DNA of 37,377 nt, taken from positions 1 through 37,377 of the forward strand of contig CALAJP010000068.1 in assembly GCA_937922815.1 (NCBI GenBank). Reading direction: 5' to 3'. Below the pieces are notes generated by a model that saw only the letters and a program-made list of their open reading frames with translations, had not been told where the DNA came from and searched no databases. This DNA is from an uncultured Saprospiraceae bacterium (GTDB lineage Bacteria > Bacteroidota > Bacteroidia > Chitinophagales > Saprospiraceae). Each line of letters begins with the position of its first letter. The stretch's first letter is position 1. Made by a program: the position numbers and the translations under genes. Positions 36,869-37,377 of this stretch are shown here, in pieces.

Positions 36869-36942
36869 GGTCCTGTAGCTCAGCTGGTTAGAGCACCTGA
36901 CTCATAATCAGGGGGTCCATGGTTCGAGCCCATGCGGGACCA
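36869..36942 (+). tRNA. tRNA with CAU anticodon (elongator Met or Ile2)
   Basis: A full cloverleaf folds: the acceptor stem GGTCCTG/CGGGACC has one T-G wobble, with discriminator A at 36942. The D-arm is GCTC/GAGC, the anticodon arm CCTGA/TCAGG with loop CTCATAA (anticodon CAT), the variable loop has five bases, and the T-arm CATGG/CCATG has loop TTCGAGC. The pairing G1-C72 and the lack of three G-C pairs in the anticodon stem exclude initiator tRNA. Elongator Met and Ile2 (with lysidine) cannot be told apart by sequence alone. CCA is not encoded (ACT follows the stem), so it must be added by an enzyme. Confidence 0.95.
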
Positions 36943-36979
36943 CTAAAAGCACTCAATTAGAGTGCTTTTTTTGTTTGTA
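36911..36979 (+). repeat. 69-bp direct repeat, copy 1 (tRNA 3' part plus terminator)
   Basis: Covers the tail of the anticodon stem, variable loop, T-arm, 3' acceptor strand, spacer and terminator of the intact tRNA. It is identical to 37309-37377 over all 69 bases visible. The offset is 398 bases. The copy in the window ends at the window edge, so the repeat may be longer. Confidence 0.95.
36945..36972 (+). terminator. Terminator after tRNA(CAU), copy 1
   Basis: AAAAGCACTC (36945-36954), loop AATTA and GAGTGCTTTT (36960-36969) form a 10-bp stem that runs into a T tract. Confidence 0.92.
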
Positions 36980-36984
36980 AAAAG

Positions 36985-37284
36985 ATGAAAGGAACAACAT
37001 ATATATTATACAGCAAATCGGTAAATCGTTATTATATAGGAGCTACACAAGAAGGCATCCAAAAACGATTGGAATCACATAATGAAGGCAAGTATGGAGG
37101 TAAGAGTTATACTTCAATGGCTACAGACTGGGAGGTATATTTAGCAATAGAATGTGATGATTATAGCCATGCGATAAGGCTAGAAAGAAAGATAAAGTCT
37201 ATGAAAAGTCGAGTGTATATCGAAAATTTAAAAAAGTATAAAGAACTCATAGAGAAAATAAAGAAAGAAACTAAGGGCACCTGA
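36985..37284 (+). CDS. Small GIY-YIG nuclease between tRNA repeats
   Basis: A 99-aa protein made of a single GIY-YIG nuclease domain, similar in length to the YhbQ/UPF0213 group. Visible: TYILYS (the GIY strand), RYYIGATQ (YIG strand, Tyr17-Gly19), the catalytic Arg28 in KRLESHNEG with His32, and the metal-binding Glu67 in LERKIKSMKSRVYI. Substrate DNA or RNA is unknown. The gene starts only 6 bases after repeat copy 1. Its last two codons and its TGA stop fall inside the duplicated tRNA sequence, so it fills the space between repeats almost exactly. It is transcribed in the same direction as the tRNA, but an intrinsic terminator separates them. Confidence 0.9.
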   Translation: MKGTTYILYSKSVNRYYIGATQEGIQKRLESHNEGKYGGKSYTSMATDWEVYLAIECDDYSHAIRLERKIKSMKSRVYIENLKKYKELIEKIKKETKGT

Positions 37285-37342
37285 CTCTTCCGAAAGCTTT
37301 CGGAACACGGGGGTCCATGGTTCGAGCCCATGCGGGACCACT
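37277..37342 (+). pseudogene. Truncated tRNA(CAU) remnant carrying a palindrome
   Basis: Matches the 3' part of the intact tRNA in two blocks: GCACCTGACTC (37277-37287, equal to 36893-36903), and GGGGGTCC onward (37309 on, equal to 36911 on). The 5' acceptor strand and D-arm are missing. Between the blocks, the seven tRNA bases ATAATCA are replaced by 21 bases: an 18-bp palindrome plus CAC. The remnant cannot be a working tRNA. The T-arm and 3' acceptor strand are perfectly kept. Confidence 0.9.
37288..37305. repeat. Perfect 18-bp palindrome in the tRNA remnant
   Basis: TTCCGAAAGCTTTCGGAA equals its own reverse complement over all 18 bases. It sits at the position of the anticodon loop and replaces the anticodon. 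Its length is six codons and it is in phase with the GIY-YIG frame after that gene's TGA stop. Confidence 0.95.
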
Positions 37343-37377
37343 AAAAGCACTCAATTAGAGTGCTTTTTTTGTTTGTA
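37309..37377 (+). repeat. 69-bp direct repeat, copy 2 (at window edge)
   Basis: Identical to 36911-36979. Includes a second copy of the tRNA terminator. In copy 1 the next bases lead straight into the GIY-YIG start, so another nuclease gene may follow outside the window. Confidence 0.95.
37343..37370 (+). terminator. Terminator copy 2, after the tRNA remnant
   Basis: Identical to the hairpin at 36945-36972. It probably ends the GIY-YIG transcript. Confidence 0.88.

Follow-up and report, generated by a model that had tools for sequence, protein, structure and literature searches.

SegB of phage T6, a GIY-YIG homing endonuclease encoded beside phage tRNA genes, drives recombination-dependent tandem amplification, as demonstrated by experiment, and has no isotype preference (PMC13096335). 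Elements that carry an integrase, such as prophages, ICEs and islands, insert into a tRNA gene, replace its 3′ part with one of their own and leave the displaced native 3′ part downstream. In intron-encoded GIY-YIG homing, a group I intron interrupts the target gene. RAYT/REP systems tie a short palindrome family to one mobility enzyme, and RAYTs are HUH/Y1 transposases.

The units analysed here lie at tRNA genes of Bacteroidota, one of them at the end of the window (the whole stretch of DNA analysed, 37,377 nucleotides from an uncultured Saprospiraceae bacterium). Like SegB and the free-standing GIY-YIG homing endonucleases of T-even phages, they place a GIY-YIG gene beside a tRNA gene and amplify a tRNA-nuclease segment in tandem, and spread by break and recombination, shown for SegB, is inferred for them; they differ in being chromosomal, in encoding a single-domain protein of about 99 aa, in carrying a palindrome-bearing partial tRNA copy, and in having one lineage per tRNA. 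The likeness to integrase-borne elements lies in entry into a tRNA gene with a replacement 3′ part and a displaced native one downstream, but the units have no integrase, measure 0.3–0.45 kb, move the terminator as well, and have a displaced copy interrupted by a palindrome. As in RAYT/REP systems, a short palindrome family is linked with one mobility enzyme; here the enzyme is of the GIY-YIG type and the palindrome of the window's genome is confined to the units, so that the dispersal expected of REP sequences was not met. Unlike in intron-encoded homing, no group I intron interrupts the target gene, and the likeness to UPF0213 proteins (BH0048, EF2693) and to SLX1 structure-specific nucleases is by sequence only. 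For the features tested, the units behave as a homing gene does and also as a tRNA-integrating integrase element does, and in each case lack a defining feature (no altered target, no integrase).

The open-access literature searched contained no description of GIY-YIG units tied to tRNA genes in Bacteroidota, and, within that literature, minimal selfish DNA of this kind is apparently undescribed. The window unit likely belongs to a large family of minimal mobile units in Bacteroidota tRNA genes, moved by a nuclease break and recombination, with the break, the recombination and the role of the palindrome being inferred.

Organization of the locus

The first-pass annotation, made from sequence alone, had described an intact tRNA(CAU) with its terminator, a one-domain GIY-YIG gene and, once more, the tRNA 3′ part with a terminator, and all of these held on analysis with ARAGORN, Pfam PF01541 and repeat comparison (Table 1); a further 11-base identical block that it had claimed also held, and was extended to the 14-position left arm listed there. 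The intact tRNA is the only one in the whole window. An exact 69-base repeat within 1.4 kb is far beyond chance. The near and far terminators are identical. The palindrome lies between both repeat blocks, at tRNA positions 35/40, and the last bases of the ORF are shared with the left arm of the tRNA copy. The only ORF of ≥60 aa in the unit is the GIY-YIG gene, no tyrosine or serine integrase is encoded among unit ORFs of that size, and a group I intron is absent, the tRNA(CAU) being uninterrupted and the GIY-YIG gene lying outside it; the claim that the unit contains neither integrase nor intron thus held.

Table 1. Coordinates of features at the window's end
Feature	Position	Strand	Support or remark
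Intact tRNA, anticodon CAU	36869-36943	+	ARAGORN; elongator Met versus Ile2 undecided
Near copy, tRNA 3′ part and terminator	36911-36979	+	69/69 identical to 37309-37377
Terminator stem of near copy	36945-36969		
One 398-bp unit (GIY-YIG gene, palindrome-bearing tRNA copy, terminator)	36980-37377	+	Repeat spacing 398; more copies on contig C51
Single-domain GIY-YIG nuclease gene, 99 aa	36985-37284	+	PF01541, E 2.5e-11
Left arm of tRNA copy (tRNA sequence just 5′ of palindrome)	37274-37287	+	13/14 identical to 36890-36903
Perfect 18-bp palindrome TTCCGAAAGCTTTCGGAA, replacing ATAAT of the anticodon loop	37288-37305	+	
Far copy, tRNA 3′ part and terminator	37309-37377	+	Reaches contig end
Terminator stem of far copy	37343-37367		

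The window ends at position 37377 with the end of its contig, C68. Contig C51 of the same genome opens with the 3′ end of a further GIY-YIG copy, which differs at 2 bases in the overlap, followed by the same palindrome, the tRNA 3′ part, the terminator, 24 bases of the start of a third unit, and unrelated sequence. Given that C68 ends with the repeat and that parts of a second and a third unit open C51, the locus is a tandem array with units of ~398 bp, and the assembly broke there, the placement of C51 after C68 being an inference; because C51 carries further unit parts, the second tRNA copy is read as one repeat of this array. A search of the rest of this genome for further tRNA-associated copies, as had been proposed, gave no second locus, and its other two GIY-YIG matches are ORFs of 601 and 344 aa, not small single-domain genes. 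C51 also carries a 201-aa ORF (L012:3831-4436) that by eye resembles a REP-associated Y1 (IS200/IS605-type) transposase.

Nuclease protein

The match of the encoded protein to PF01541 is above the curated cut-off. Residues Y6, Y17, R28, H32, T43, W49, E67 and K71 are invariant in all 17 aligned relatives, and membership of the GIY-YIG superfamily, judged by a domain match plus catalytic-type residues (Y6, Y17, R28 and E67, in 17/17 relatives), was met. The closest solved sequences to the profile were the UPF0213 proteins BH0048 and EF2693, and SLX1 (E 3e-14, 1e-10 and 9e-5). Among units of one genus, dN/dS was ~0.05–0.15 where measurable, many pairs being left out as saturated at synonymous sites, and the gene is under purifying selection in these relatives. 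DNA cutting by the protein, and the site of cutting, are inferred without cleavage data; spread by cutting tRNA genes, as proposed in the first-pass annotation, was not shown.

Occurrence across Bacteroidota

A search profile built from an alignment of 17 mostly tRNA-adjacent proteins matched in 263 of 392 Bacteroidota genomes. For a less biased count, all PF01541 matches of 12 complete genomes (picked among the profile-positive ones) were collected, giving 109 GIY-YIG loci, 81 with ORFs <200 aa. An intact same-strand tRNA lay ≤150 bp upstream at 25 of these 81 small loci, and such a tRNA lay ≤ about 110 bp downstream at 9 more; none of the 19 large-ORF loci fetched had a tRNA inside about 1.5 kb. 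By our estimate from about 50 tRNAs per 4 Mb, far below one locus would be tRNA-adjacent by chance. Arrays were found of five 315-bp units at tRNA-Asp, seven units with tRNA-Phe-like tails, three units at tRNA-Arg and two at tRNA-Ala. Units thus occur throughout the sampled Bacteroidota, and restriction to this phylum is not established.

Relatives of the window protein were scanned, as were viral contigs, with the single protein as query. In named genomes, 20 of 32 relatives had an intact tRNA ≤150 bp upstream, every one a tRNA(CAU), in hosts including Maribacter, Aequorivita, Aquimarina, Prolixibacteraceae and Saprospiraceae, and a palindrome lay inside the anticodon loop of the tRNA copy wherever the copy was readable. 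Phage or plasmid cargo was considered and rejected, the window protein having no match in the phage, viral-contig or plasmid collections.

Partial tRNA copies and palindromes

Copy anatomy was analysed in 69 non-redundant units with an upstream tRNA, 66 of which had a recognisable tRNA copy behind the gene. A perfect hairpin of ≥6 bp was present in 59 of the 66 copies, and shuffled copies attained the observed hairpin score in 66 of 3300 trials. Such a hairpin was also found in 24 intact tRNAs, so part of the 59/66 reflects tRNA arms. The usual palindrome forms are TCCCGA..TCGGGA and TCCGCC..GGCGGA, and their site in tRNA coordinates is almost constant per tRNA type, across host families: 27/45 for Ala and Arg, and 28/46 for Val and one Pro, spanning the whole anticodon arm; 35/40-41 for one Met type and 37-38/48-49 for the other; and, in the T arm, about 50/59 for most Asp and 56/62 for most Phe. 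The site varies in Asn, Gly and some other types. At its 5′ side the copy begins anywhere between tRNA position 2 and about 55. The anticodon region, suggested earlier as the area of cutting, fits only in part, with the palindrome there in the tRNA(CAU) family and in the T arm in other families.

In mirror-type units, a promoter region and a hairpin-bearing tRNA 5′ part precede the gene, and the intact tRNA follows it (L151, L152, L173, L193, L194, L199, L201, L208, L217). Degenerate tRNA-like copies with palindromes were also seen upstream of the intact tRNA (L031, L047, L023, L091, L039), and may be remnants of earlier units.

Genomes G228, G283, G351, G359 and G391 each contain 20–70 dispersed TCCCGA..TCGGGA palindromes (control pattern, 0–1), and the window's genome contains none. 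The window palindrome as a genome-wide dispersed repeat was rejected, its 16-bp core being confined to units in its own genome.

Occupied and empty sites

In one well-sampled genus, tRNA sites were located via conserved neighbour genes. The tRNA-Ala site was occupied in 7 of 29 genomes and the tRNA-Phe site in 4 of 30, with most being empty; the presence of occupied and empty alleles at one site, a criterion for a free-standing homing endonuclease gene, was met. At tRNA-Phe, the sequence beyond the unit runs on as in empty alleles. At tRNA-Ala, the near and far terminators are unlike at six occupied sites (L250, L259, L264, L269, L050, L055), and in 5 of these the far terminator matches that of empty relatives at a level exceeding the 95th percentile of comparisons between empty sites, which L259 does not reach. 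The near terminator resembles those of other occupied sites at L250, L259 and L264, and, weakly, those of L050 and L055 resemble each other; at L269, the near terminator and the encoded CCA match the species set L262, L263 and L266, and the far terminator matches the relative L267. Near and far terminators are almost identical at some other loci (L256, L277, L066).

The simplest reading at tRNA-Ala is that the incoming unit carried its own tRNA 3′ part and terminator and pushed the native ones aside, and the criterion for a tRNA-integrating element, a replacement tRNA 3′ part at one end and the displaced native one at the other, was met there. Because sites are polymorphic and, at occupied tRNA-Ala sites, far terminators are often native and near ones foreign, units move between species and restore the tRNA they enter, which stays intact. 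Since no same-genus genome was available for an empty allele of the window locus, this is shown for relatives and not for the window copy. The earlier proposal of a ~0.4-kb mobile unit that restores the tRNA and leaves the displaced 3′ part downstream was thus supported via relatives, and the absence of both empty sites and other tRNA-associated copies, which would have refuted it, was not encountered, as relatives show both.

The intact tRNA-Phe beside the unit has, in the compared region, the same sequence as in empty genomes. An altered target in the occupied allele, as expected in homing, was therefore not met at tRNA-Phe, where only the partial copy is altered, assuming that the target is the tRNA arm. 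Resistant tRNA alleles were rejected, as anticodon-arm variants of tRNA-Ala do not split occupied from empty sites. Separately, within a single genus the tRNA-Ala anticodon arm (L250–L279) exists in several variants with paired changes, which are found in genomes with an occupied site and in those with an empty one, and tRNA-Phe is nearly constant.

Nuclease lineages and tRNA identity

On a tree of 129 proteins (95 columns, many forks unresolved), tRNA identity changes 28 times, compared with a mean of 57.6 in 300 label shuffles (lowest value 51) and 53.8 times for labels shuffled within host family, and host family changes 44 times. Nuclease lineages therefore tend to keep one tRNA while crossing host families.

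Proposed mechanism

In the proposed mechanism, a unit entering an empty tRNA gene would supply the tRNA 3′ part and terminator and so leave a complete tRNA, and their native counterparts would be pushed to the unit's far end; mirror-type units would do the same with the 5′ part and promoter. Mobility, tRNA restoration and native-terminator displacement are shown in relatives. The GIY-YIG protein, specific to one tRNA gene and one arm, would break the unoccupied copy there, homologous recombination via the tRNA sequence beside the break would bring the unit in, and the palindrome would destroy the target in the unit's own tRNA copy. Here the tRNA-specific nuclease clades and the near-fixed palindrome position are shown in relatives, and it is inferred that DNA is broken, that copying proceeds by recombination, and what the palindrome does. 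If a lineage-specific place in the tRNA is the nuclease target, the palindrome protects the unit's own copy and recombination through the tRNA sequence inserts the unit, a palindrome flanked by tRNA sequence would be expected at that place. The repeated 3′ part and terminator would let a settled unit grow into tandem arrays, which are themselves shown in relatives.

Against the break model, a nuclease cutting a tRNA gene should also attack its own host, because the intact tRNA-Phe beside the unit is unchanged in the region compared, and host tolerance is unexplained; survival via low expression, fast repair or a context requirement is possible. The tie between clade and tRNA could also come from the need of recombination for tRNA homology, without nuclease specificity.

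Alternative explanations

The best-surviving alternative is passive mobility, in which units reach new species through horizontal transfer of the usual kind and integrate where a crossover falls in the tRNA arm that unit and site share; the protein would leave the tRNA gene uncut and serve some other purpose, for instance acting on the palindrome as a hairpin or cruciform. In its favour, the exact structure observed results when a circular or tandem unit undergoes one crossover in the 3′ arm, or in the 5′ arm for mirror-type units, the nearest solved sequences include SLX1, a structure-specific endonuclease, and palindromes are a constant companion of the copies. We consider it unlikely, however, as it leaves unexplained the nuclease gene as sole cargo, the purifying selection on that gene, and the constant place of the palindrome per tRNA type.

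A one-off local duplication of the tRNA end around a resident gene, without a mobile unit, is very unlikely. The identical terminators in the window, and the nearly identical ones at L256, L277 and L066, speak for it, and, since its near and far terminators are identical, the window array alone could also fit local duplication; recurrence at many tRNA types and in many host families speaks against it, and for the family it was rejected by site polymorphism and by foreign near terminators with displacement of the native ones.

An RNA-level system, in which the protein acts on the tRNA and the palindrome-bearing copy is a decoy or regulatory RNA in the transcript, would fit copies transcribed with the gene that keep tRNA-like 3′ parts, clades that track tRNA identity, and a palindrome replacing exactly the anticodon arm in Ala, Arg, Val and Pro units, but is also very unlikely, as the variable 5′ limit means that many copies cannot fold as tRNA (on which ground the decoy was rejected), mirror-type units carry the 5′ part only, and terminator copying with native-terminator displacement is a DNA-level event.

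Implications

The preferred reading remains that of mobile units moved by an inferred nuclease break and recombination. A bolder version, which we regard as slightly less likely than not, is that these are a new and undescribed class of autonomous mobile element of ~0.3–0.45 kb that holds a single GIY-YIG gene, targets one arm of one tRNA gene in each lineage, restores the tRNA, guards its own copy by a palindrome and is widespread in Bacteroidota. If true, they would be among the smallest self-mobile DNA units known. With nuclease relatives in about two thirds of sampled Bacteroidota genomes, they were probably overlooked, each resembling an unremarkable GIY-YIG nuclease gene. The units exploit a site that is indispensable to the host, exchange tRNA ends and terminators from one species to another, and build arrays. 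As nuclease and tRNA come naturally paired, the way in which a single-domain GIY-YIG enzyme selects its target can be tested directly.

Small GIY-YIG genes without a tRNA

A separate clade of small GIY-YIG genes without a tRNA (29 rows, support 99 on the protein tree) was also observed, often flanked on both sides by direct repeats of ~30–210 bp of the type GTCATxCTGAGCGxAGTCGAAGG (L156, L160, L165, L166, L175, L181-L183, L188, L204, L205, L209, L214 and L218, around 850-1750 of each), an arrangement that possibly resembles a REP/RAYT-style partnership with a GIY-YIG enzyme.
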